From Candidatus Scalindua japonica (lineage in GTDB: Bacteria; Planctomycetota; Brocadiia; Brocadiales; Scalinduaceae): DNA of 64,000 nt. The stretch is from positions 62,001-126,000 of the forward strand of contig NZ_BAOS01000027.1 in NCBI RefSeq assembly GCF_002443295.1. Reading direction: 5' to 3'. The notes under the pieces are model-generated. The model saw only the letters and a list, made by a program, of their open reading frames with translations, had not been told where the DNA came from and did no database searches. Shown here piece after piece: positions 11,145 through 64,000 of the stretch; position 1 is the stretch's first letter; each line of letters opens with the position of its first letter. The translations under genes and the position numbers were made by a program.

Positions 11145-12491
11145 ATGAACCACTATCTATCTGCCAGCGAAAAGAAAACATGGACACTTATCCAGGATAA
11201 AATTAAGGAAAAAGTTACTCAACAACAATTTACTACTTGGTTTTCAAATCTTAACCTAATCAAACTTGATGCATATGAAATATCTATTCTTGCTCCAAAT
11301 TCCCTCTGTAAAGAGTGGATAGAGAACAACTACATGGATGCTGTCACATCATCTTTAGCAGAAAACCATATATTTAATCGTGAAGTACGATTCATTGTTG
11401 AAGATAATGGCTCATCAGAACCCAAACTTCATGTTCACAACCATCATTCTTCGCCTGGCGCGCATAACTCTACCCACATAAACAAAAATTACAATTTCGA
11501 TAATTTTCTGGTAGGACCATGCAATCGACTGGCACATGCGGCAGCTCTTGCTGTATCAGAGTCTCCTGGCACTGCATACAATCCTTTGTTTATCCACGGT
11601 TCTGTTGGTTTGGGCAAGACACATTTGCTTCACGCAATATTATTACAGTCACAGGAAAAAGGACACAAAGCACTATATTTACCATGCGAAAGTTTTGTAA
11701 ATCACTATATATCTACTATAAAAACCGGTGATTGGGACAGTTTTAGAAATAAATATAGACAAATTGATGTTCTATTAATAGATGATGTACATTTTCTGGC
11801 AAACTCTCAGAGTTCCAGAGAAGAATTTTTCCATACATTCAACGCTCTTTACACACGTCAAAAACAGATAGTATTGTCCAGTGATTGCCCTCCGGAAGAG
11901 ATACCGACAATAGAAGAACGTCTTATTTCCAGGTTCAGATGGGGGTTGATAACCAGGGTAGATCCTCCCGGCTTTGAAACCAGCGTTGCTATAATTCAAA
12001 AAAAAACCGCTTTGCTGAATATGGAAATCTCTTACGATGTAGCTCGATATTTAGCGGATAACGTTGTCTCTAGTATAAGAGAAATTGAGGGTACTATTAC
12101 AAATATTCATAAATATGCGAAAATGAATGAAAGCAAGATAGACTTGAGCCTTGTAAAACAGATAATAAAAGGTTTCTCAAAACAGAGGCATGATATAGGT
12201 ATCGAAAAAATACTAAACACCGTTACAAAACATTACGGTCTCCAACTTTCTCAGCTTCATTCTAAAAGAAAACTTAAATCAATTACATTACCAAGGCAGA
12301 TTGCAATGCATTTGGCAAGAAAATTTACCAGCTTATCATTAGGGGAAATAGGTGGCTATATGGGTGGTCGCGATCATACAACGGTTATGCATGCAGATGA
12401 TAAAATAAAAAAACTCAAGATTATCGATCGAAATATATCTTCAACATTAAGAAAGTTAGAAAATTCTCTTATTAAACAACAAGAGTACTGA
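11145..12491 (+). CDS. dnaA: Chromosomal replication initiator protein DnaA
   Basis: The 448-residue protein has all DnaA domains. Domain I (1-85) shows WTLIQDKIKEKVTQQQFTTWF. After a histidine- and serine-rich linker (95-115), domain III carries Walker A GSVGLGKT (152-159), where the usual GG is GS, and Walker B LLIDDVHFL, plus a SDCPP sensor I region. Domain IV ends with LPRQIAMHLARK and the box-binding signature GGRDHTTVMHADDKI. DnaA melts the origin and loads the helicase. Next come dnaN, dciA and gyrB, a classic replication block, and DciA is the helicase-loading partner expected without DnaC. Confidence 0.97.
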   Translation: MNHYLSASEKKTWTLIQDKIKEKVTQQQFTTWFSNLNLIKLDAYEISILAPNSLCKEWIENNYMDAVTSSLAENHIFNREVRFIVEDNGSSEPKLHVHNHHSSPGAHNSTHINKNYNFDNFLVGPCNRLAHAAALAVSESPGTAYNPLFIHGSVGLGKTHLLHAILLQSQEKGHKALYLPCESFVNHYISTIKTGDWDSFRNKYRQIDVLLIDDVHFLANSQSSREEFFHTFNALYTRQKQIVLSSDCPPEEIPTIEERLISRFRWGLITRVDPPGFETSVAIIQKKTALLNMEISYDVARYLADNVVSSIREIEGTITNIHKYAKMNESKIDLSLVKQIIKGFSKQRHDIGIEKILNTVTKHYGLQLSQLHSKRKLKSITLPRQIAMHLARKFTSLSLGEIGGYMGGRDHTTVMHADDKIKKLKIIDRNISSTLRKLENSLIKQQEY

Positions 12492-12818: not shown

Positions 12819-13925
12819 ATGAAGATAATATGTAGTAAAGAATTTATAAGAAAAGGGTTTCATGCAGTAGAAAATGTTATATCCGGTTCAAATATAAACC
12901 CAATGTTACAAAATGTTAGAATTATTGCTAATAATAACACCTTAGAATTATCAACAACAGACATGGAAGTCAGTGTCAGTTATTTAATTGATTCTGTTGA
13001 AGTGATAACACCTGGTAAAATGATTGGACCAGAAATACAGATTTCTTCAATTGTTAAAGAATGGACAGAAGAAACTATAGAAATAACTGAAGAAGACAAA
13101 AAATGTGTAATAAAAGGAAAGGATAATTTTTTTAAGATTTTCTGTTCAGACCCGGAAGGTTTTCCAACAATTCCCAAATTTATTGAAGAAGAATATATAG
13201 AGATAGATAAAAATGTTCTCCTGGATATGATAAAAAAAACAGCATTTATTATTTTAGGGGATAGAACAAAACATGGAACAAGCGGAATTTTTCTAGACAT
13301 AAGTGATAATCAAATAAAAATGGTTACAAATGATGGAAGAAGGCTTAGTGAGGTAAAGAAGAAAATAAATAATCCTCATAGTATTTCAAAAAACTGCATA
13401 ATACCAATAAAGGGTATATTACAAATGCAGAGAATTGCAGGAGAACAGGAAGAGGATTTAATAAAATTAAGAATAGAAGAAAAACGCATATTTATAAAAA
13501 CAAAACACTCAACATTATGCTCTCAGCTGTTGGAAGGACAATATCCAAAGTATGAGGAAGTAATCCCAACTAATCTTGACAAAAAAATATACATGGATAG
13601 AAACCAATTTTCATCGGCTATTCGTAGAGTGTCTATTATGACAACTGAAGAGTATAAATTACTGAGATTTAAATTTTCAGGTGAAATACTTGAAATAAGA
13701 TGTTTGTCACCGGATGTAGGAGAGTCTAAGACTGAAATTCCAATAGAATATTCAGGAGAAGATATGGAGATAGGTTTGAATCCAGAGTTTTTATTAGATT
13801 ATCTTAAAAATGTAGATTGTGACAGGATTTTGTTAGAGTTAAAAGACCAGGGAACAGCCGGGAAGTTAAAGGTTGGAACTGGATGTATTTATGTAGTAAT
13901 GCCTATGAGCCTCGGAGAAGAATAG
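12819..13925 (+). CDS. dnaN: DNA polymerase III beta subunit (sliding clamp)
   Basis: The 368-residue length is that of bacterial sliding clamps, which have three repeated domains of about 120 residues. Typical points are an MKIICSKEFIRKGFHAVENVIS start, a NNTLELSTTDMEVSVS stretch in domain 1, LLEGQYPKYEEVIP in the middle domain, and the C-terminal VVMPMSL that contributes to the peptide-binding pocket. The clamp encircles DNA and tethers polymerase III. The gene lies between dnaA and dciA. The start codon at 12819 has little ribosome site, only AT-rich sequence. Confidence 0.95.
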   Translation: MKIICSKEFIRKGFHAVENVISGSNINPMLQNVRIIANNNTLELSTTDMEVSVSYLIDSVEVITPGKMIGPEIQISSIVKEWTEETIEITEEDKKCVIKGKDNFFKIFCSDPEGFPTIPKFIEEEYIEIDKNVLLDMIKKTAFIILGDRTKHGTSGIFLDISDNQIKMVTNDGRRLSEVKKKINNPHSISKNCIIPIKGILQMQRIAGEQEEDLIKLRIEEKRIFIKTKHSTLCSQLLEGQYPKYEEVIPTNLDKKIYMDRNQFSSAIRRVSIMTTEEYKLLRFKFSGEILEIRCLSPDVGESKTEIPIEYSGEDMEIGLNPEFLLDYLKNVDCDRILLELKDQGTAGKLKVGTGCIYVVMPMSLGEE

Positions 13926-51805: not shown

Positions 51806-52309
51806 ATGCCTGAACCTATTCTTAATATACTTAAACGCGCGATAGATATGTCTGAAGGGACTTACTACCGACTTATACTGCTTGTTGGAGAGTCAGGCAG
51901 TGGCAAGACAAAAGCACTTAATGATTTGAGCATAGAAATTGGAGTTGAGGTAATAAATCTCAATCTTTTGCTATCCAAGCAGCTTCTAGAGATGACTCCA
52001 AAACAAAGGTCTCTGCAACTGGCGAAGATAATAGAGGATACAATCAGAGGAGAAGGTGATACTATTATCCTCGACAATATCGAATTACTGTTTGATATCA
52101 GCCTCAAACAAGATCCATTGAGGCTTCTGCAAATGCTTTCACGTAGCAAAACAATAATTTCATCATGGAGTGGAAAACAAGATCGATCAAAGCTTCTGTA
52201 TGCTGAGGCTGGTCACCCGGAATATAGAACTTATGATGTCACAGATTTTTTAATCATCAACATGGACGGTAACAGCAATTTGAACCTGCAACTAAACCAG
52301 GAGAGGTAG
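51806..52309 (+). CDS. brxF: BREX type 3 P-loop protein BrxF
   Basis: The 167-residue single-domain ATPase has Walker [13 protein letters not shown] (27-38) and Walker [13 protein letters not shown] (about 85-96), in line with BrxF, the small AAA-like ATPase that opens type 3 BREX operons. The ATG follows a GAAAGAAA. It ends 7 nt before brxC. BREX stops phage replication after adsorption and marks host DNA by methylation; the role of BrxF in this is not known. Confidence 0.82.
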
Positions 52310-52316
52310 GCAGAGC

Positions 52317-55300
52317 ATGAAATATAAAGATTTAATTCAATTTGACCCTATTGAAACAGTTGTTCAGTTACGTGACGCAGACCGGTCGCCAGCAGCGCAC
52401 CAACTGGTAAATACGTATGTGATTTCAGAAGAGATGGCAGATCGCCTGACAAATCTTGTATTTCCTCAACTCCAGTTTAAATCGCCAGTTGACAACAAGG
52501 GACTTTTAGTAGTTGGTAATTATGGTACCGGTAAATCACATCTGATGTCTGTCATATCCAGTATTGCTGAAGACGAATCACTCCTTTCCGCCCTTAATCA
52601 TCAAGATGTTGCCGAATCAGCCAAACAGATTGCCGGACACTTTAAGGTAATTAGAACTGAAATTGGCGCCACAACCATGTCACTCAGAGACCTTCTTGTT
52701 GGTGAACTGGAAGAGCATCTGGATAAGCTGGGCGTTGCTTATCTGTTTCCGGATGCCGGATCAATTTCCGGCCATAAAAGGGCTTTTGAGGAAATGGAAT
52801 CCAAATTTCTTGAGAAATATCCTGACCATGGCCTGTTACTGGTAGTCGATGAGCTTCTTGATTATCTGAGAACCCGAAAAGACCAGGAATTAATATTAGA
52901 TCTAAATTTCCTTCGTGAAATTGGAGAGTATACGAAGAGTTCACGTTTTCGCTTTGTGGCTGGTGTCCAGGAGGCTATTTTTGACAGTCCACGTTTTTCC
53001 TTTGTTGCTGATAGTATAAGAAGGGTTAAAGATCGCTTCGAGCAAATACTGATTGCACGTAACGATATTAAGTTTGTCGTCTCAGAGAGATTGTTGAAAA
53101 AGACGGTGGAACAACAAGTTAAGATTCGGGAATATCTTACTCCATTTGCAAAATATTACGGTAATATGAATGAACGTATGGAAGAGTTCGTTCGACTCTT
53201 TCCTGTACACCCTGACTACATTGATACCTTTGAGAGGGTGACGGTCGCTGAAAAGCGTGAAGTGCTTAAAACCCTGTCTATGGGGATGAAGGAAGTTCTT
53301 GAGAAGGATGTTCCAGATGATCTGCCCGGTATAATAGCCTATGACTCCTATTGGGGCATATTAAAACAAAATGCTTCGTTCAGAGCTGTCCCTGAGATAA
53401 AAGCGGTTATAGATTGCAGTCAGGTACTAGAGTCTAGAATTGAACAGGCAATTACCCGTTCAATTTATAAACCCATGGCATTGCGGTTGATTCGTGCACT
53501 ATCTGTACACCGGCTTACAACCGGTGATATCCATGCAGCGTTGGGTGCCACAGCAGCAGAACTGCGAGATAGTTTATGCCTTTATGATTCCACGAATGCA
53601 GAAATGGGTAGTAATGAGCCGGAACTGGATCTGCAAACGCATGTTGAGACCGTTCTGCGTGAAATACATAAAACGGTCAGTGGACAATTCATATCTTCTA
53701 ATCCGGATAATGGTCAATTTTATATAGATCTGAAAAAGACTGATGATTTTGACGCCCTCATTGACAAACGTGCCGAAAGCCTTGATGACCCAGCATTGGA
53801 CCGTTTCTACTATGAAGCCCTCCGAAGAGTAATGGAATGCCAGGATACCACTTATGTTACAGGCTATAAAATCTGGCAACATGAGCTGGAATGGCTGGAA
53901 CGTAAAGCTGCCAGAACCGGTTATCTTTTTTTCGGTTCGCCAGATGAGCGGTCGACAGCGGTTCCTCAGAGAGATTTCTACCTCTACTTTATTCAGGTCT
54001 ACGATCAAAGCCCCAAGATTAACCGATATTTAAAAGAGAAAAACAGTGACGAGGTATTCTTCAGACTGAACGGTACTGACGAAGAGTTTCAGATATCACT
54101 CAAAAACTATGCAGCGGCTCTTGATTTGGCATCAACATCATCTGGACATGCAAAGGCAACCTACGAAACAAAGGCAAATCTGTTCTTGCGGAATCTGGTT
54201 CAGTGGTTGCAGAAACACATGATGGATGCTTTTGAAGTTACCCACCAGGGAAAAACCAAGTCCATTACAGACTGGGCCAAAGGAAAATCCTTGAGGGATC
54301 TTGCAGGCATTTCTGCTCATGAGACCATAAACTTCCGGGATTTAGTCAATGCTGTCAGTGGAATCTGCCTCTCAACTTGTTTCGAGGATCAGGCCCCTGA
54401 CTACCCTTTTTTCTCTGTAATGATAACGGGTAGTAACCGGCAACAGGCTGCTATGGATGCCTTGCGTGCTATTGCCGGTCAGAGTAAAACAAAACAGGCA
54501 ACTGCTGTTCTGGATGCCCTTGAGCTGTTTGATGGAGATAAGATTGATACGACTAAATCAAAATACGCATCTTTCATTCTTGATATTACCAGAAAGAAAG
54601 GTCACGGCCAGGTTGTCAACCGAAATGAAATCATCCAAGACTACAATGGTATCGAATATATGAACCCCGAGAAAACAAGACTTGAACCGGAATGGAGTAT
54701 AGTGATTATTGCAGCACTGGTTTACGCGGGTGAAATCGTCATGGCTATTCCCGGAAAAAAGTTTGATGCCACCGCACTTCAAATGATGGCTGGTACTCCC
54801 ATGGATGAGCTGGTTCGTTTCAAGCATCTGGAGCAACCGAAAGAGTGGAATCTTCCAGCCTTGAAGGCCCTTTTTGAGTTGCTGGGTCTGGCTCCCGGAA
54901 TGGCACAGTTGGTTTCTCAGGGGAAAGATGAGCCGGTACAACAAATGCAACAGTCCGTAACCGGAATTGTGAAAAAAGTAGTGATGACACAGCAATCAAT
55001 CCGTGACGGCTTGGCCTTCTGGGGGATTAATTTGTTGTCTGAAGAACACCTTGCCGAGCAAAAAGAGGTGTTGAGTCAGGCGAAGGAATTTTTCGAATCG
55101 CTACAAGCATACAACACACCAGGGAAATTGAAGAACTTCAAATACAGTGTAGAAGATATAAAAGGGTATGGTAAAGCTGTTAAGTTGCTGGATACTATTG
55201 CTATTCTACGAGAATTCATTTCAGACCATGGAACGGCAGCATCCTGGCTCTCTACGGCTGAAGCTGTTTTACCATCCGATCATGATTGGTCAGACCGGAT

Positions 55301-56063
55301 GAAAGCCATCAGACAGGATATTATGAGTGATGTTACCAGTTCAAAGTCCAATATAAAAAGTCTGGGAGTATCTGTTTCTAAGAAACTGAACGAACTCAAA
55401 GGAGAGTATATAACAATTTACACCACGTTACATACAAAGGCCAGACTGGGAGTAAATGATGACAAACGAAAGGCCAGATTGCTGAACGATTCCCGACTTA
55501 AGATACTCCAGAAACTGGCCGGAATTGATTTGATGCCAAGGCAACAGTTAACAGATTTCCAGACCAGACTCAGCTCTCAGAGAAGCTGTTTTTCGATGAC
55601 AGAGCAGGAACTTTCACAAACACCGGTATGCCCACATTGCGGATACAGGCCATCAGTTGAGAACCGGGAATCTCATCTGCAGGGCTCGGCTATGCTGGGC
55701 CAGCTCGATGAAGAGCTGGATACTATGCTGGAAGGCTGGACCGAAACCATACTGGACAACCTTGAAGATCCAATCACGCAATCAAATCTGGAACTGCTGA
55801 AAACCGATGCTAGAGATGCTGTTGATACATTTATCAAGACCAGAGAGCTACCTGAATCGCTTGATGGCGAATTTGTAAACGCATTACGTGAGGTCTTGTC
55901 CGGTCTGATAAAGGTGGCTGTAAAGACAGGTGATCTTCAAAGAGCCCTGAGAGTCAGTAGTGGTCCGGCAACCCCAACAGAGATGAAGAAACGGTTTGAT
56001 GAATATATCGATGGACTGACCAGAGGAAAGGATCCGGCAAAGGTACGTATTGTCATGGAGTAG
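52317..56063 (+). CDS. brxC: BREX P-loop protein BrxC (large ATPase)
   Basis: The 1248-residue protein has Walker A GNYGTGKS (67-74) and Walker [13 protein letters not shown] (about 173-184). The [32 protein letters not shown] opening is typical of the BrxC/DUF6079 group, which form the large AAA+ core of BREX. A C-terminal CPHC (1105-1108) lies in an otherwise helical part, with no second Cys pair nearby. It is 7 nt after brxF with a GGAGAGG site. The gene appears intact. GC is higher than most of the window. Confidence 0.9.
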
Positions 56064-56121: not shown

Positions 56122-58941
56122 ATGAGTGGTAAAAATATGAAACAAGGGGAATTGTTTAAGAAGAAACTGGTTCCAGCCAAGCCCGGTTCCGGTAAGTTAT
56201 TTGAAGAAGAAATTGTGGTTAATGATGGTCCAGTTGTGTGCCTTGGTCAAGAATTTGAAAGTGATGTAGCACGTCGTGAATATTTTGCAGCGTTGCTTCG
56301 GGAAAAATTAAATGATCCTGAATTCCGTAAAATAGAAGGTTTCCCTATTGGTGAGGATGAGGACATCCTCGCTCTTTCCGATCCACCATATTACACTGCC
56401 TGTCCGAATCCCTGGATTGGTGATTTTATTAAAGAGTGGGAAAGTCAGAAGCCTGAAAAGCCGAAAAATTATCAATACCACAGAGAGCCGTTTGCAGTAG
56501 ATGTGAGCGAAGGTAAAAACGATCCATTTTATAGAGCACACTCTTACCATACTAAAGTACCGCCTAAAGCGATTGTAACCTATCTACTTCATTATACGGA
56601 TGTTGGAGACATTGTCTTTGATGGTTTTAGTGGTTCTGGCATGAGTGGTTTAGCTGCATATTTATGTGAAAATTTAAATAGTCAAGATAAAGAGCAGATA
56701 AGAAATATTTTTCATGGTGCTTCATATAATGAACCTAGTTTTGGTCCAAGGCACTCTATTATTGGTGATTTAGGGCCAGCTGCAGTTTCAATAGGATATT
56801 CGTATAACCGGAAGGTTAATTCTATTGAATATAATAAACAAGCAAAATCACTGATTAAAGAACTAAGAAATGAATTTGGTCATTTTTATGAAACTTTACA
56901 TTCAGATAATCAAAGTACTGGAATTATAAATTATACTGTTCTTTCTGACATATTTATATGCCAATCTTGTGGTGCAGAATTATGTTATTGGGATATTGCA
57001 GTTGATAAAGAAAAGAATGAACATAAAGAAATATTTGAATGTACAAGCTGTAAATCATCATTGAAAAGATCTGATTTGGATAGAGCCTACACTTCATACT
57101 ATGATAATATTGCCGGTGAAGTTGTTAAATGTGTAAAAAGAAAGCCTGTCCTGATAAATTATTACATAGGAAAGAAAAAATACGAAAAAATACCAGACTC
57201 AAAAGACATAGAGAAATCAGAAAATATTGATTTAAAAAGAGTCCTTCAATACTTACCAGTGAATAAGATCCCGTATATGCATATGACACATGAAAGAAAT
57301 AATTTGGCAAGTCAGGGTATAACTTATATTCATCATTTTTATAGTGCGAGAAATCTATTTATTGCAGCAGAAATGTGGCAAAGGATAATCAATAAATATA
57401 CTTTACTTATTAATATTTTTACAGCAATAAATCCAAGGCTTATTACCCAAATGTCTGCATATAGAGTAGGTAAAGGAAAAAGTAATTTAAGAACTGGAAC
57501 GCTTTATATTCCATCGTTAACGTCAGACTATAATGTTATTGGTGCTTTTGAAAGCAAATACAAAGTTTTGTCTAAAATACTTTTATCTTCAGAGAAAAGT
57601 AAGCCACATACTATATCAACTACACAAAGCCATATTGACTTATCAAATATACCTTCAAATTCAATAGACTATATATTTACAGATCCTCCATTTGGTGAGA
57701 ACATATATTACTCAGATTTGAACTATATATGGGAAAGCTGGCTTGGGGTAATAACTAATAGTGATTCTGAAGCAATTGTTGATAAAGCAAAGAAGAAAGG
57801 TAATGTGGAATACAAATATTTAATAAGTATGTCTTTCAAAGAAGCCTTCAGAATTTTAAAAAAGGGAAGATGGATTACTGTTGAGTTCCACAACTCTCAG
57901 AATGCAATATGGACATGTATTCAGAATGCTTTAATAGAAAACGGTTTTGTTATTGCAGACGTAAGAATTCTGGATAAAAAGCAAGGCTCAATAAAGCAGG
58001 TCATTGAAAGTTCTGCGATAAAACAAGATTTAATAATATCTGCTTACAAGCCTGTTGAAGCTCTTAACGAAAAAATAAATCTCTACACTAGTAGTGAACA
58101 AAGTGCATGGGATTTCGTGAGAGAGCACTTAAAAATGTTACCTGTTTTTGTTAGTAATTTAGGTATAGCTGAGGTTGTTATTGAAAGACAAGGCTTTCTA
58201 CTTTATGACAGGATGGTCGCTATTCATGTTCAAAATAACATGACAGTTCCTTGTTCAGCAGCAGAATTTAACTTAGGTTTGAAGACTAGATTTTCAGAGC
58301 GTGATGGAATGTATTTCTTGTCGGAACAGGTTACTGAATATGACAAAAAACGTTTACAATCAAAAGGAATTAGGCAGCTTTCATTATTTGTTACAAATGA
58401 GGCGTCGGCAATTCAATGGCTATACCACAAATTAAAAGATAAGCCACAAACGTTTAGTGATATACATCCTCAATTTATGAAAGAGATCAGTGGTTGGAGC
58501 AAAAATGAAAAAATACTGGAACTTTCAATTCTGCTTGAACAGAACTTCCTATGTTATGACGGTAAGGGCAGGGTTCCTGAACAGATCCATGCCTACCTCT
58601 CTACTAATTGGAAGGAACTGCGTAATCTGCGAAAAGAAGATCCGTCATTAGTTGCCAAGGCAAAAGATCGATGGTATGTCCCTGATCCAAGCAAAGCTGG
58701 CGATCTTGAAAAACTGCGTGAAAAATCCCTTCTCAAGGAGTTTGAAGAATACAAGGCGTCAAAGAAAAAGCTCAAACTCTTCCGCCTGGAGGCCGTTCGT
58801 ACAGGATTCAAGAAATGCTGGCAGGAACGAGACTATGCCACTATCATCAGTGTTGCAGAAAAGATTCCGAACAATGTCCTTGAAGAAGATCCGAAGCTGC
58901 TCATGTGGTATGACCAGGCAGTGACGAGAAGTCAGGGATAG
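56122..58941 (+). CDS. pglX: BREX type 3 DNA methyltransferase PglX (DUF1156 type)
   Basis: The 939-residue protein begins with the DUF1156 hallmark DPPYYTACPNPW (about 86-97), then the SAM-binding FSGSGMSGL (169-177), a C-x2-C zinc pair with a later C-x2-C (CQSC...CTSC, about 279-315), the catalytic TDPPFGENIYYSDLNY (DPPFGE at 521-526) and a helical C-terminus. It would methylate adenine in the host recognition site. Base composition changes sharply inside it: about 43% GC up to motif I (about 56640), 25-28% from there to about 58100, and 50% near the end. This suggests that the middle, with the recognition region, was replaced. Confidence 0.88.
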   Translation: MSGKNMKQGELFKKKLVPAKPGSGKLFEEEIVVNDGPVVCLGQEFESDVARREYFAALLREKLNDPEFRKIEGFPIGEDEDILALSDPPYYTACPNPWIGDFIKEWESQKPEKPKNYQYHREPFAVDVSEGKNDPFYRAHSYHTKVPPKAIVTYLLHYTDVGDIVFDGFSGSGMSGLAAYLCENLNSQDKEQIRNIFHGASYNEPSFGPRHSIIGDLGPAAVSIGYSYNRKVNSIEYNKQAKSLIKELRNEFGHFYETLHSDNQSTGIINYTVLSDIFICQSCGAELCYWDIAVDKEKNEHKEIFECTSCKSSLKRSDLDRAYTSYYDNIAGEVVKCVKRKPVLINYYIGKKKYEKIPDSKDIEKSENIDLKRVLQYLPVNKIPYMHMTHERNNLASQGITYIHHFYSARNLFIAAEMWQRIINKYTLLINIFTAINPRLITQMSAYRVGKGKSNLRTGTLYIPSLTSDYNVIGAFESKYKVLSKILLSSEKSKPHTISTTQSHIDLSNIPSNSIDYIFTDPPFGENIYYSDLNYIWESWLGVITNSDSEAIVDKAKKKGNVEYKYLISMSFKEAFRILKKGRWITVEFHNSQNAIWTCIQNALIENGFVIADVRILDKKQGSIKQVIESSAIKQDLIISAYKPVEALNEKINLYTSSEQSAWDFVREHLKMLPVFVSNLGIAEVVIERQGFLLYDRMVAIHVQNNMTVPCSAAEFNLGLKTRFSERDGMYFLSEQVTEYDKKRLQSKGIRQLSLFVTNEASAIQWLYHKLKDKPQTFSDIHPQFMKEISGWSKNEKILELSILLEQNFLCYDGKGRVPEQIHAYLSTNWKELRNLRKEDPSLVAKAKDRWYVPDPSKAGDLEKLREKSLLKEFEEYKASKKKLKLFRLEAVRTGFKKCWQERDYATIISVAEKIPNNVLEEDPKLLMWYDQAVTRSQG

Positions 58942-58944
58942 GAA

Positions 58945-58980
58945 CCACAGATGGACACAGATAAACACAGATTTTTGTAT
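58945..58980 (+). repeat. Left repeat flanking the GxxExxY gene
   Basis: CCACAGATGGACACAGAT (58945-58962), followed by AAACACAGA and TTTTTGTAT, matches 59343-59367 (CCACAGATGGACACGGAT then TTTGTAT) and, inverted, 59398-59427. It overlaps the start codon region of the GxxExxY gene, so the first residues (MDTDKHRF) are encoded by the repeat. Confidence 0.75.
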
Positions 58981-59334
58981 AAGGAAGAGACACATCAGAT
59001 TATTGGATGTGCATTTGAAGTTTTGAATACGCTTGGCCATGGTCTTCTTGAAAAACCATATGAAAATGCACTTGTTGTTGAATTTGGTTTAAAACAAATA
59101 CCGTTTCAGCAGCAGACGCGGTTTCCGGTGATTTATAAATCGGTACAAGTTGGTGAATATATCCCCGATCTGATTGTTTTTGATAAAATTATTGTTGACA
59201 CCAAGGTCATTGAGAAAATTGGCAATAATGAAATAGCGCAAATCATCAATTATCTAAAGATTACCGGGTTGAGAGTAGGGCTGGTATTAAACTTTAAACA
59301 TGCCAAACTTGAATGGGAGAGAATTATCTTATGA
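58951..59334 (+). CDS. GxxExxY family protein (PD-(D/E)xK-like nuclease)
   Basis: The 127-residue protein carries the family signature GLLEKPYENAL (about 31-41) and a PD-(D/E)xK-like core (YIPDLIVFDKIIVDTKVIEKI, about 68-88). In most members the last part reads E-x-K; here D-x-K is found, which may still bind metal. The gene is inserted between pglX and the AlbA_2 gene and is flanked by copies of a CCACAGATGGACAC repeat; its first codons lie in one copy. The family is widespread in environmental bacteria, with no proven role, and often lies among such repeats. It is probably a hitch-hiker rather than a BREX part. Confidence 0.85.
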   Translation: MDTDKHRFLYKEETHQIIGCAFEVLNTLGHGLLEKPYENALVVEFGLKQIPFQQQTRFPVIYKSVQVGEYIPDLIVFDKIIVDTKVIEKIGNNEIAQIINYLKITGLRVGLVLNFKHAKLEWERIIL

Positions 59335-59342
59335 AGAAAATG

Positions 59343-59427
59343 CCACAGATGGACACGGATTTTGTATTATCGAAAAACAAAATTATTAAAAATATTATCT
59401 GTGTGAATCTGTGTTCATCTGTGGTTA
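59343..59427. repeat. Right repeats flanking the GxxExxY gene (direct and inverted copies)
   Basis: A direct copy (59343-59360) is followed by an inverted one (59398-59427; its reverse complement reads CCACAGATGAACACAGAT). Together they form a long, imperfect stem with an AT-rich loop. A more degenerate copy lies at 56082-56103, between brxC and pglX (CCACAGATTATGCAGATGGGCACA). Confidence 0.7.
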
Positions 59428-59449
59428 CAAATGGAGTTGTTTCGTGAGG

Positions 59450-61207
59450 ATGAATGAACAAGAACTCTTAAAATTGCTCAGCGCCCATGAGTGGAAAGAT
59501 ATTGAGTTTAAAGAAGCCCAGAGAGCTGTCCCTAAAAATGCTTATGAATCTGTTTCCGCCTTTGCCAATACGGAAGGCGGTCATCTTGTATTTGGTGTAA
59601 GAAAAGACGGATCAGATTTTGAAGTAGTAGGCGTCTTAAACGTGGATAAAGTACAGAGCGACTTCCTGACTTCATTACGCCAAAAAGATAAGATCAGCTT
59701 GATTATTGATGTAAAGGAACAGCTCCATTTGGTTAACGAAAAAAATCTACTCGTGTTTTATGTGCCGGAAGCGCCACGTACTGATAAGCCGGTGTTCTTG
59801 AATGGAGATATTAGAAGAAGTTTTCTTCGCAAAGGAGCCTGCGACGTAAAATGCTCCAATGAAGAAGTTCAGCGGTTAATCAGTGACGCTTCACTGGAAC
59901 GGTATGATGGGCAAACAGTTGATCATGATTTAAACACCTGCTTCAGTTCCAAAGATATTGGCTGGTATCGTAGGCAGTACGAAGGAAAGACAGGTAATCG
60001 CAGTTATGGCGATTTAGAGGATTTGGAGTTTCTATTTCAGCTTGGTCTGATAAAAAATACGGACAGAGGCCAAAAACCGACTATTGCCTCAATTCTTTTA
60101 TTTGGTCAGGATGGTTACTTACGCGGTCTACTTCCCCGGCCGGTTATTGATTGTCAGCGGTACTTATTTAAACATGACGATTATTCAAGAGGTGAACGTT
60201 GGCATGATCGCACGGTTTGCGATTACAATTTAGTCCAGAGCTGGCTTGCTGTTCTTGAATGGTACTATCGTTTCGCTGAGATTCCGTATGAAGTAAATCC
60301 AAAAACTCTTCAACGCAGTGATACTCCACCGGATTATATTGCTTTTCGAGAAGCAATCATCAACATGCTGATTCATCAGGATTATGCCGACCATTGCCGC
60401 AAACCGGTTATTGCTCATTTTACCGATTTAACCCGATTTTGGAATCCAGGTGATGCATTTGCCAATGTAAGGGATCTGCTTGAGCCAGGAGAGAAGGAAA
60501 CAAGAAACCCAATTCTGGTGACGGCATTTAGACGTATCGGATTCAGTGAAAACGCAGGCTGGGGATTACGGGATGTATTTAAGAACTGGCGAGGATTGGG
60601 TAAGGTCCCGCCTGTAATAAACAACGATAAATCAAAGAAATCATTCGAACTTGTTTTACATAAGGAAGTCCTGTTATCAAAAGAACAGGTAGAATTTCAG
60701 AAGACAATCGGTGTTCACCTCTCAGAAGATGAGGCGTCTATTTTTGCATATGCATACAAGCACAAAAAACTCTCCATTTATGATATCCGGGATGTTTCAG
60801 GTAATCCACTTCAAAGCTGTCGAGACATTGCTGATCATTTAGTCATTCAGGCTCTTTTTGTTAAGATTGACAATGATTTATACGAACTTTCACCCGTCAT
60901 GCAGGAACGGTTCAAACATATTGAAGCTGAGGCCCATGATGAGGCCCATGATGAGGCCCATGAGAAACTTCTAGGTGACATGACTGAAACAGAACGGCAA
61001 ATTCTCAATTACTGTGTCGAACCCAAAAGTACTCCTGAATTACTCAAATTACTCGGATACCGTTCAAGAACGGGTAATTATAAATCTGCTCTATCTAACC
61101 TGCTTTCAAGTGGTTATCTGGAAATGACTATTCCAGGCAGTCCAAGAAGTAAGAATCAAAAATATAAATCAACAATGGAAGGCAAACGACTTGTACACAA
61201 CGACTAA
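59450..61207 (+). CDS. AlbA_2/Schlafen-type DNA-binding protein with HATPase_c_4-like and winged-helix parts
   Basis: ATG 59450 is preferred (585 residues), because an upstream frame (59411) lies in the repeat. The N-terminal AlbA_2 domain shows HEWKDIEFKEAQRAVPKNAYESVSAFANTEGGHLVFGVRKDG (about 10-52). The centre has the HATPase_c_4 motif REAIINMLIHQDYADH (about 290-305), and the end is winged-helix-like (LGYRSRTGNYKSALSNLLSSGYLEM). A 12-bp tandem repeat encodes HDEAHDEAH. These proteins are often called RecG-like regulators and occur in defence islands. It may regulate the operon or act as a defence factor. It is 146 nt from brxHII. Confidence 0.82.
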   Translation: MNEQELLKLLSAHEWKDIEFKEAQRAVPKNAYESVSAFANTEGGHLVFGVRKDGSDFEVVGVLNVDKVQSDFLTSLRQKDKISLIIDVKEQLHLVNEKNLLVFYVPEAPRTDKPVFLNGDIRRSFLRKGACDVKCSNEEVQRLISDASLERYDGQTVDHDLNTCFSSKDIGWYRRQYEGKTGNRSYGDLEDLEFLFQLGLIKNTDRGQKPTIASILLFGQDGYLRGLLPRPVIDCQRYLFKHDDYSRGERWHDRTVCDYNLVQSWLAVLEWYYRFAEIPYEVNPKTLQRSDTPPDYIAFREAIINMLIHQDYADHCRKPVIAHFTDLTRFWNPGDAFANVRDLLEPGEKETRNPILVTAFRRIGFSENAGWGLRDVFKNWRGLGKVPPVINNDKSKKSFELVLHKEVLLSKEQVEFQKTIGVHLSEDEASIFAYAYKHKKLSIYDIRDVSGNPLQSCRDIADHLVIQALFVKIDNDLYELSPVMQERFKHIEAEAHDEAHDEAHEKLLGDMTETERQILNYCVEPKSTPELLKLLGYRSRTGNYKSALSNLLSSGYLEMTIPGSPRSKNQKYKSTMEGKRLVHND

Positions 61208-61353: not shown

Positions 61354-64000
61354 ATGAACTCGGAATGGCAATACAGCACAATCCACAACTGCATATGCAA
61401 GGTGATTGAAAAGCAAACCTTGTGGGGACAGACAGTTTTTCGTATCTGGCTTCCTGCAAGCGATGCCATTGTTAAGATTCCAGGTTCTGCGCTTAACCCT
61501 ATAAGAGAGGAAATTAATCCGGAAAATGAACGCCATCGAATATCATACATAGCTACAGCTGCTAAGGTAGCGGATTTACTGGAAGGCAGCATTAATGTCC
61601 GTAACGAACATTTACTCCTTGCCCCGATGGAATCAAATGTTATTCCTCTTCCCCATCAGATTACGGCATTGTCACGGACAATGTCGGGAGACAGGGTTCG
61701 TTATCTTCTTGCTGATGAAGTTGGTCTGGGAAAGACCATTGAAGCGGGACTCGTTTTGCGCGAACTCAAATTACGTGGACTTGCTCGTCGTATACTTATT
61801 GTTGCACCCAAAGGCATTGTTACCCAGTGGGTTTCTGAAATGCAGACACACTTTAACGAAAAATTCCAGTTGATCCTTGGTGAAGACCTGAAAACATTAG
61901 GTAAGGTGTCTTCAGGTGAATCATCAACACCGTGGACAATATTTGATCAGATTGTGGTATCCATTGATTCGGTTAAACCAATGGAGAAGCGCCGTGGGTG
62001 GCCAAAAGAGCGTATTGCGGAATACAATAAGATTCGATTTGAGGATCTGATAACAGCCGGTTGGGACTTAGTCATTGTGGATGAGTCACACCGCCTTGGA
62101 GGCAGCACTGACCAGATTGCTCGATATAAATTGGGACAAGGTCTTGCAGAATCGGCACCCTATCTTCTTTTGCTGACAGCAACACCTCACCAGGGGAAAA
62201 CAGATGCTTTTCATAGATTGATGAAACTCCTTGATACCGAAACCTTTCCTGATATTGAAAGCGTTTCAAGAGACCGTGTCGCTCCTTATGTTATCCGTAC
62301 AGAAAAGCGTAAAGCTGTTGATGCTGAGGGGCAACCGTTATTCAAGCCGAGACGGACAGAAATGTCTCCTGTTTCCTGGCAGCAACATCACCACCTGCAG
62401 GAACTTCTCTATAAGTCAGTTACTGATTATGTGAGGGAAGGATATAATCAGGCGATTAAGGACAAAAATTATCATATCGGTTTTCTGATGATTCTCATGC
62501 AGCGACTGGTTGTGTCAAGTACAAGAGCAATTCGAACTACACTGGAACGAAGGCTTGAGGCTCTTAAGAATCAAACGCAGTTAATAATCGAGAAACTTGA
62601 TAATTATGAGAGTCTGGACTCTGAATTAGAATCCATATACGACATGGACGGACAAGAACTGCTTGATGAGCTTTTGGAGTTTCATGTTGCAGCCTTGGAA
62701 AACGAAGTAAACCTTGTGGAATCTATTCTTAATAGTGCTGTTCAGTGTGAGCAGGCAGGACCTGATGCAAAAGCTGAATATCTTATCGACTGGATTTATC
62801 GCCTTCAGTCTGAGGAAAATGAATCTGACCTCAAGACTCTAATCTTTACTGAGTTTGTTTCGACACAGGCAATGCTTAAGGAATTTCTGGAGGCCAGAGG
62901 AATTTCTGTTGTTTGTCTTAACGGTTCATTAAGTATGGAAGAACGTATACAGGTCCAGGAATCCTTCCGGACTAAAACACGGGTTTTAATTTCTACGGAT
63001 GCCGGTGGAGAGGGATTAAACCTTCAATTTTGTCATATTGTTATTAATTATGATATCCCCTGGAATCCAATGCGGCTAGAGCAGCGGATAGGACGTGTAG
63101 ACCGTATCGGTCAGCGAAAAACAGTGCGTGCCATCAACTTTGTTTTTGAAAATTCAGTTGAGTTAAGGGTCCGTGAAGTGTTGGAACAGAAGCTCTCTGT
63201 TATTTTTCACGAGTATGGAATCGACAAAACCGGAGATGTTCTCGATTCAGCTCAAGCTGGAGGGATTTTTGAGGAAATGTTTACAGCGGCTATCTTGAAT
63301 CCTGATAACATCGATGACGTCACCCAGAAAACTGTTGACCAGATAAAACAGGAGATCCGTGATGTTAGAGAACGTTCGGCAATATATGGCATTTCAGATG
63401 AACCGGATTTGCATGCAGCAGAACGCCTTCGCTCACATCCTCTACCTCATTGGCTGGAACAAATGACAATTTCCTACCTGGAGTCACATGGAGGAAAAGC
63501 TTCCCGGAAGAAATCGTGGTGGAATTTACTCTGGCCTGACGGAGCAAAACATACAAAAGCGGTTTTCAACTCCCGTGATGCGGACATCTTTAATGCTAAG
63601 CTTTTAAATCTAGAAAATCCCCGAATCAGAGGTCTGGCCTTAAATATACCTCCGATTGCTGCGGGACAACCAATCCCGAATGTACAGGTTAAAGATCTCC
63701 CGGAAAACATTGCCGGTTATTGGGGACTCTATGAAATTCGCATTACTTTGAGTAACCTTCAAATACCTTCATCATTAAGAACACCACATGCCAGGCGAAG
63801 GTTTCTTACTGTTTTCACCAATGAAGAAGGCAAAGTCTTTCTGCCTACAGCACGCCACATCTGGAATGGAATTAATGATTCAGAACTGTCCGTGACGGGA
63901 ACGCTATCGATGGATGACTCAAAGCATGCCTTTGAAAGGCTGAGGGAGGTTGCTGAAGAGACGGGGAAGGATATTTTCAGCGAGCTAATGCAGGAACATT
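61354..64000 (+). CDS. brxHII: BREX type 3 SNF2-type helicase BrxHII (C-terminus beyond window)
   Basis: ATG 61354 is the first start after an in-frame TAA at 61342-61344. The visible 882 residues contain the SNF2 helicase motifs: Walker A DEVGLGKTIEAG (121-132), DEAH-type DESH (243-246), LLTATPHQGK, and in the second lobe STDAGGEGLNLQFCHIVINYDIPWNPMRLEQRIGRVDRIGQRK. No stop codon is met before 64000. BrxHII in type 3 BREX lies after pglX; pglZ and brxA would follow outside the window. It is presumed to act on DNA during phage exclusion. Confidence 0.85.
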   Translation, partial: MNSEWQYSTIHNCICKVIEKQTLWGQTVFRIWLPASDAIVKIPGSALNPIREEINPENERHRISYIATAAKVADLLEGSINVRNEHLLLAPMESNVIPLPHQITALSRTMSGDRVRYLLADEVGLGKTIEAGLVLRELKLRGLARRILIVAPKGIVTQWVSEMQTHFNEKFQLILGEDLKTLGKVSSGESSTPWTIFDQIVVSIDSVKPMEKRRGWPKERIAEYNKIRFEDLITAGWDLVIVDESHRLGGSTDQIARYKLGQGLAESAPYLLLLTATPHQGKTDAFHRLMKLLDTETFPDIESVSRDRVAPYVIRTEKRKAVDAEGQPLFKPRRTEMSPVSWQQHHHLQELLYKSVTDYVREGYNQAIKDKNYHIGFLMILMQRLVVSSTRAIRTTLERRLEALKNQTQLIIEKLDNYESLDSELESIYDMDGQELLDELLEFHVAALENEVNLVESILNSAVQCEQAGPDAKAEYLIDWIYRLQSEENESDLKTLIFTEFVSTQAMLKEFLEARGISVVCLNGSLSMEERIQVQESFRTKTRVLISTDAGGEGLNLQFCHIVINYDIPWNPMRLEQRIGRVDRIGQRKTVRAINFVFENSVELRVREVLEQKLSVIFHEYGIDKTGDVLDSAQAGGIFEEMFTAAILNPDNIDDVTQKTVDQIKQEIRDVRERSAIYGISDEPDLHAAERLRSHPLPHWLEQMTISYLESHGGKASRKKSWWNLLWPDGAKHTKAVFNSRDADIFNAKLLNLENPRIRGLALNIPPIAAGQPIPNVQVKDLPENIAGYWGLYEIRITLSNLQIPSSLRTPHARRRFLTVFTNEEGKVFLPTARHIWNGINDSELSVTGTLSMDDSKHAFERLREVAEETGKDIFSELMQEH

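Follow-up and report, generated by a model that had tools for sequence, protein, structure and literature searches.

The locus analyzed here raises the question of how the middle of a methyltransferase gene can differ in base composition from both of its ends while the reading frame stays intact. The gene is located at positions 56122–58941 of a 64,000-nucleotide stretch of the Candidatus Scalindua japonica genome (contig NZ_BAOS01000027.1, positions 62,001 to 126,000; the whole stretch is referred to as the window in the following), forms a single intact reading frame of 939 codons, and is part of a bacteriophage exclusion (BREX) operon. Since this operon represents a complete BREX type 3 system, the gene encodes PglXI (BrxXI) and is not a type 1 pglX. 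Our results indicated that codons ~175–800 of pglXI very probably constitute an interchangeable specificity block within the complete type 3 operon, replaced as a unit by recombination.

Base Composition of pglXI

The two best change-points in guanine–cytosine (GC) content were located at codons 180 and 813 (nt 56659 and 58558), dividing the gene into segments with 41.0% (up to codon 179), 31.3% (codons 180–812), and 47.0% GC (beyond). The log-likelihood gain achieved with two breaks amounted to 21.5, whereas 1000 codon shuffles gave 5.7 on average and 14.2 at most. The shuffles never attained the observed fit, and the GC mosaic with an intact frame, as proposed in a first-pass annotation made from the sequence alone, was thus confirmed. 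Its placement of the break at the S-adenosylmethionine (SAM) motif also agrees with the data, motif I being located at nt 56620–56649. The dip itself exists but is less deep than the 25–28% noted at first: in 400-nt windows, GC content changes from about 41% to 28–32% just past position 56600, and to 42–45% after 58400. Recovery to 35–38% had been placed at about 58200–58450, but the AT-rich block in fact extends to about 58558. For the remaining core genes of the operon, values between 39.5% and 44% were determined.

A lower-GC middle was found in 81 out of 90 non-redundant homologues (on average −5.8% GC and −11.9% at third codon positions, GC3). A dip shared by all homologues had been named beforehand as an outcome speaking against an exchange, and this is nearly what was observed. 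The dip was therefore rejected as proof of exchange; since composition is weak evidence in this respect, the case rests on sequence comparison.

Exchange of the Central Block between Type 3 BREX Operons

Operons that are nearly identical elsewhere differ, as a unit, in a block extending from approximately motif I to approximately codon 700–800 and holding the target-recognition insert and the catalytic DPPF motif. Within the backbone clade of the Scalindua gene, this applies to L008, from a Planctomycetota assembly, and to G1255. The latter is a 4.5-Mb contig obtained by sampling the phylum to which the Thermodesulfobacteriota locus L009 belongs. At the DNA level, the two are 96.9% identical over 4656 nt of brxF–brxC and 92.5% identical over 2984 nt of brxHII. 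Within pglX, identity amounts to 85–91% for codons 41–140, ~28–60% for codons 181–520, and ~50–70% up to codon 800, and is back at 83–96% from codon 801 onwards; the GC3 of L008 steps at the same pglX positions as the identity edges. Four block types were distinguished in the clade, namely that of L008, those of G1255 and G1225, which are related (~80%), a third in G1390, and a fourth in the Scalindua gene, the C-terminal parts being 84–99% identical. Relative to L008, G1255, G1225, and G1390, identity of the Scalindua gene drops at about residue 175 and recovers at about residue 800, which places the exchangeable block, with approximate edges, at 56644–58521 (plus strand, as for all features described below). 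The swap edges of the clade, at about codons 165–175 and 800, coincide with the composition edges of the Scalindua gene at codons 180 and 813. The block is flanked by a 5′ anchor, formed by the conserved N-terminal sequence as far as motif I (residues 1–172, 56122–56637), and a 3′ anchor, represented by the C-terminal conserved part (residues 801–939, 58522–58938); 71% of residues 41–140 and 84% of residues 821–939 are the same in each of the four block types found in this clade.

The islands G646 and G684 come from genomes sampled within the same phylum as the Chloroflexota locus L011. Outside the block, they align along ~12 kb, with 96.4% identity in one stretch of 7024 nt and 95.4% in another of 5206 nt; the dissimilar stretch (45–63%) lies inside pglX, from ~codon 110–180 to ~715 in the numbering of the Scalindua gene. 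For plasmids of two Rhodobacterales (L057 and L065), BrxC is 96% and the C-terminal part 95% identical, with insert segments at 43% and 21%; the block of L057 groups with that of L066 (support 99), and a sister relationship of the L057 and L065 blocks was rejected (p = 0.022). Converse pairs were also found: L138 and L134 have the block in common at 75/56/67% and L012 and L026 at 67/59/65%, their C-terminal parts being only 26% and 29% identical, respectively. Thus, one block occurs in different backbones (L138/L134, L012/L026), and near-identical backbones carry unrelated central blocks (L008/G1255, G646/G684).

Pairwise identities were compared for 33 loci (496 pairs, which are not independent, so that the figures describe a pattern and not exact probabilities). 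BrxC identity predicted the identity of BrxHII (rho 0.91) and of PglXI residues 661–790 (rho 0.88) and 791–936 (rho 0.89), and was not predictive of the N-terminal part (rho 0.18), the DPPF segment (0.14), or the two insert-spanning segments (−0.20 and −0.16). For the DPPF segment, mean identity was 53–67% for close and distant operons alike. Mantel correlations for the 90 non-redundant genes, again with pairs that are not independent, amounted to −0.01 (p = 0.57) between the insert and the C-terminal part, 0.85 between the halves of the C-terminal part, and 0.55 between the halves of the insert. The claim that the central module was exchanged is accordingly supported for the family, by the pairwise comparison and by near-identical operons differing only in the block; the exchange, its edges, and its domain content are observed in the family and in the backbone clade of the Scalindua gene.

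Each of four loci contains two full-length pglXI copies with different middle blocks (L011, 5980–11540; L013, 3395–8592; L044, 1254–6175; L021, 3236–6031 and 9115–11757), possibly representing intermediates or dual specificity. In addition, a Klebsiella plasmid pglXI adjoining genes for arsenic resistance is cut after ~150 codons, and a copy in Aeromonas is distributed over different frames (L055, 7947–9426; L056, 8001–9695); their end parts are 73–76% identical to those of the Scalindua gene, with BrxC at only 41%.

Probable Exchange in the Scalindua Gene

Comparison of the Scalindua operon with L008 yielded identities of 74% for BrxC and, within PglXI, 79% for the N-terminal part, 32/28/50% for the middle, 55% for residues 661–790, and 86% for the C-terminal part; a further comparison gave 32/27/53% for the middle. 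The three parts of the gene are thus clearly not related to the same nearest relatives at equal identity, an outcome that the first-pass annotation had named as speaking against a swap. The middle was found to be nearer to L012 (Bacillota) than to L008 (66 vs. 33 columns, p = 0.0012), and the C-terminal part nearer to L008 than to L012 (31 vs. 6 columns). In a careful block tree comprising 22 rows, L008 joined L016 (97/93) and not the Scalindua gene, whose own block was not found in another backbone in the sampled genomes.

Several points weigh against an exchange in this particular gene. The column test with L012 was one of 18 comparisons, the careful tree did not reject the Scalindua gene and L008 as block sisters (p = 0.089), and in the test of the same grouping on a quick 51-row tree of the middle, the free search missed a better tree. 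No donor of the block was detected in the sampled genomes of Planctomycetota, Chloroflexota, Thermodesulfobacteriota, and Bacillota, nor in plasmids, viral contigs, or E. coli (the latter by DNA search only), and no near-identical sister of the gene was present in the sampled genomes. Moreover, the family-wide GC dip neither dates nor proves an event in this gene. In the absence of both a donor and a near-identical sister, the exchange is not directly seen here; we infer it, strongly, from the clade to which the gene belongs.

An exchange would be unnecessary if the middle had been inherited with the operon and had evolved very fast under phage pressure while the ends stayed similar. Quick divergence of recognition domains is known, as stated in the published work on type 3 BrxXI (PMC12839542), and the grouping of the Scalindua and L008 blocks, not being formally rejected (p = 0.089), is in line with such a course. 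However, operons with 96.9% identity in brxF–brxC DNA carry middles that are barely alignable, the same pattern appears with sharp edges in G646/G684, and divergence alone cannot yield blocks shared at 56–75% by pairs with unrelated C-terminal parts. Fast evolution without exchange, which is contradicted for the family by G646/G684, the converse pairs, and L008/G1255, is therefore regarded as improbable.

Origin of the AT-Rich Middle

Among the 90 non-redundant homologues, the dip of the Scalindua gene ranked fourth by GC and nineteenth by GC3. For residues 181–645 of the block, GC3 was below that of the ends in 77 of these 90 genes, across phyla, and followed the GC content of the host; GC3 of the middle scaled with that of the ends (slope 0.77, r = 0.83). 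Amino acid composition was ruled out as the cause after correction, and so was column conservation, since the corrected dip was alike in conserved (−0.118) and variable (−0.127) columns; within the ends, variable and conserved columns differed by −0.007 (p = 0.35). No GC dip was found in brxC, brxHII, and pglZ. As neither amino acid composition nor conservation has an effect and these three genes are without a dip, the dip is tied to the block itself: a factor specific to the pglXI block keeps its GC content low across phyla. One candidate cause is the import of mobile DNA that is rich in AT. A single, fixed AT-rich donor pool is, in its simple form, a poor fit to the data, because the GC3 of the middle scales with that of the ends.

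Import of the whole operon, with a dip intrinsic to the middle of the enzyme or due to incomplete amelioration and no exchange in the Scalindua gene, would fit the AT-rich middle in 81 of the 90 homologues, the scaling of its GC3, the mobility of the operon (shared at 97% by L008 and G1255 from different phyla), and the fact that most relatives of this genome are without a full-length pglXI copy, but it explains composition and not the differing nearest relatives of middle and C-terminal part, does not account for the unlike blocks that near-identical operons carry within one clade, and is considered even slightly less probable than fast evolution.

Domain Content of the Block and Proposed Mechanism

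The domains covered by the interchangeable block were deduced from an AlphaFold model built from 44 homologues, plasmid rows being excluded (mean predicted local distance difference test, pLDDT, 86). The modeled core is a Rossmann methyltransferase in which strand 164–167 is followed by SAM motif I (DGFSGSGMSG, residues 167–176; D167, G171, G173, M174, and G176 invariant), strand 211–215, an insert of ~250 residues, strand 515–520, and the catalytic DPPF motif (residues 521–524, 57682–57693); the core finishes near residue 642, and residues 646–939 form mostly helical domains. The target-recognition insert (~residues 230–500, 56809–57621), placed by the model between the strands 211–215 and 515–520, matches the type 3 insert described in the literature (PMC12839542). 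It features a four-cysteine, zinc-finger-like motif (C280, C283, C307, and C310; 56959–57051), which, like DPPF (D521–F524), is invariant in 48 aligned sequences. The gene product thus shows the insert between core strands 2 and 3, the four-cysteine motif, and the DPPF motif of BrxXI/PglXI enzymes. Since the recognition domain is nested in the core, according to the model and the published BrxXI architecture, the low-GC block encompasses the entire recognition insert together with that half of the catalytic site to which DPPF belongs. The earlier assumption that the module carries DPPF and target recognition is borne out by the structure model and the invariant motifs. A fold search with the model recovered methyltransferase cores only (best E 3.7e-4) and no match for the recognition insert, and a profile search of solved sequences yielded CcrM and similar proteins, near motif I only.

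A second, DPPY-like motif, SDPPYYTACPNP (56377–56412, residues 86–97), is located N-terminal of SAM motif I and is nearly invariant across the homologues.

In the proposed mechanism, recombination would end in the conserved stretches on each side, namely the N-terminal sequence as far as SAM motif I and the conserved C-terminal sequence. The block comprises all of the target-recognition insert, the half of the catalytic core that includes DPPF, and the beginning of the helical C-terminal region. Homologous recombination through the conserved flanks appears to be the probable route, because the edges fall where both protein and DNA are conserved, and the swapped unit would carry DPPF because the recognition domain is nested inside the core. 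In some cases, exchange may begin before motif I, as seen in G646/G684, since conservation of the N-terminal part is universal and its link to the operon only weak. The anchors would keep PglXI fitted to its operon, and the block would decide which DNA site is methylated; the methylated site presumably changes with the block, given that target recognition resides in the insert in enzymes of this class. With a block swap, self-marking and phage targeting would both move to the new site. Tentatively, type 3 BREX operons might even be viewed as a near-constant chassis that spreads across phyla, into which blocks, each consisting of a recognition insert and half of the core, are plugged from a shared pool and whose accessory slot turns over as well. 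If true, specificity would be a mobile trait across phyla, separate from the defense machinery.

Comparison with Known Systems

Methyltransferase alleles are well known to exchange their recognition domains. The closest such case is modA of Neisseria and Haemophilus, in which the recognition domain is exchanged and has 28% GC, compared to 40% in the ends (PMC3311624). Both systems feature a variable central recognition domain with lower GC than the conserved ends and replacement as a unit via the flanks; however, modA belongs to a phase-variable type III restriction–modification system (PMC3311624), whereas the enzyme studied here belongs to BREX type 3, half of the core, with DPPF, is part of its block, and its shared backbones span phyla. 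For type 1 BREX, it has been reported that the methyltransferase sets specificity, that pglX diverges between otherwise similar operons, and that engineered recognition-domain mutations alter the site (PMC11341690, PMC9009780). In contrast to the type 3 enzyme, type 1 PglX/BrxX follows the gamma-class order, with a spacer and a recognition domain that is C-terminal (PMC11341690, PMC9009780); in type 3, the catalytic domain encloses the recognition domain, and part of the core is therefore transferred in a swap. Type 3 BrxXI/PglXI as described in PMC12839542 corresponds to the Scalindua enzyme in operon type, domain order, the ~250-residue insert between core strands 2 and 3, the four-cysteine motif, and the C-terminal helical domains; that work gives the architecture and the fast divergence of the recognition domain, and does not, in the sections consulted, describe block exchange between operons. 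A full-text literature search, with incomplete coverage and therefore no proof of priority, returned no report of block exchange in a type 3 BREX enzyme.

Near-identical BREX-3 operons differing only in the block represent natural chimeras, by means of which the recognition site of this little-studied defense system can be assigned to a particular segment of a single protein. They suggest that specificity may be predictable or movable by the block alone. They also raise the question of how a cell survives a changed self-mark on its own DNA.

Organization of the Operon and Neighboring Regions

The complete type 3 operon was recognized by profile hits for brxF, brxC, pglXI, and brxHII, and by downstream open reading frames for pglZ and brxA. 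It includes brxF (51806–52309; NCBIfam BREX_3_BrxF, 181 bits, cut-off 50) and brxC (52317–56063; PADLOC BrxC, 2015 bits; Pfam DUF6079), followed by pglXI (PADLOC PglXI, 1289 bits, residues 26–938), which is the only intact copy in the genome according to a protein search. The helicase gene brxHII (61354–64000; PADLOC BrxHI/BrxHII, 1402 bits) runs past the end of the window, and pglZ and brxA come next in L054; these open reading frames, located just past the window end, are collinear with G1255 and with the annotated BREX-3 PglZ of L057/L065.

Two accessory genes are located between pglXI and brxHII, encoding a GxxExxY protein (58951–59334; TIGR04256, 138 bits, cut-off 35) and a Schlafen/AlbA_2 protein (59411–61207; Pfam SLFN_AlbA_2), relatives of the latter adjoining pglX in L057, L066, and G1390. 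The accessory slot beside pglX varies among close operons: L008 encodes a pair of AAA_15 ATPases, G1255 an AAA ATPase and an S8 protease, and G1390 a Schlafen/AlbA_2 relative upstream of pglX. The slot was located at 58951–61207 in the window, 8713–11707 in L008, 9383–13046 in L151, and 4845–6602 in L153.

The GC minimum of the window lies elsewhere, in the dnaA–dnaN region (22.7% near position 12401), where it is flanked by dnaA (11145–12491) and a dnaN-like gene (12819–13925); therefore, the replication origin may be located ~40 kb from the BREX operon.
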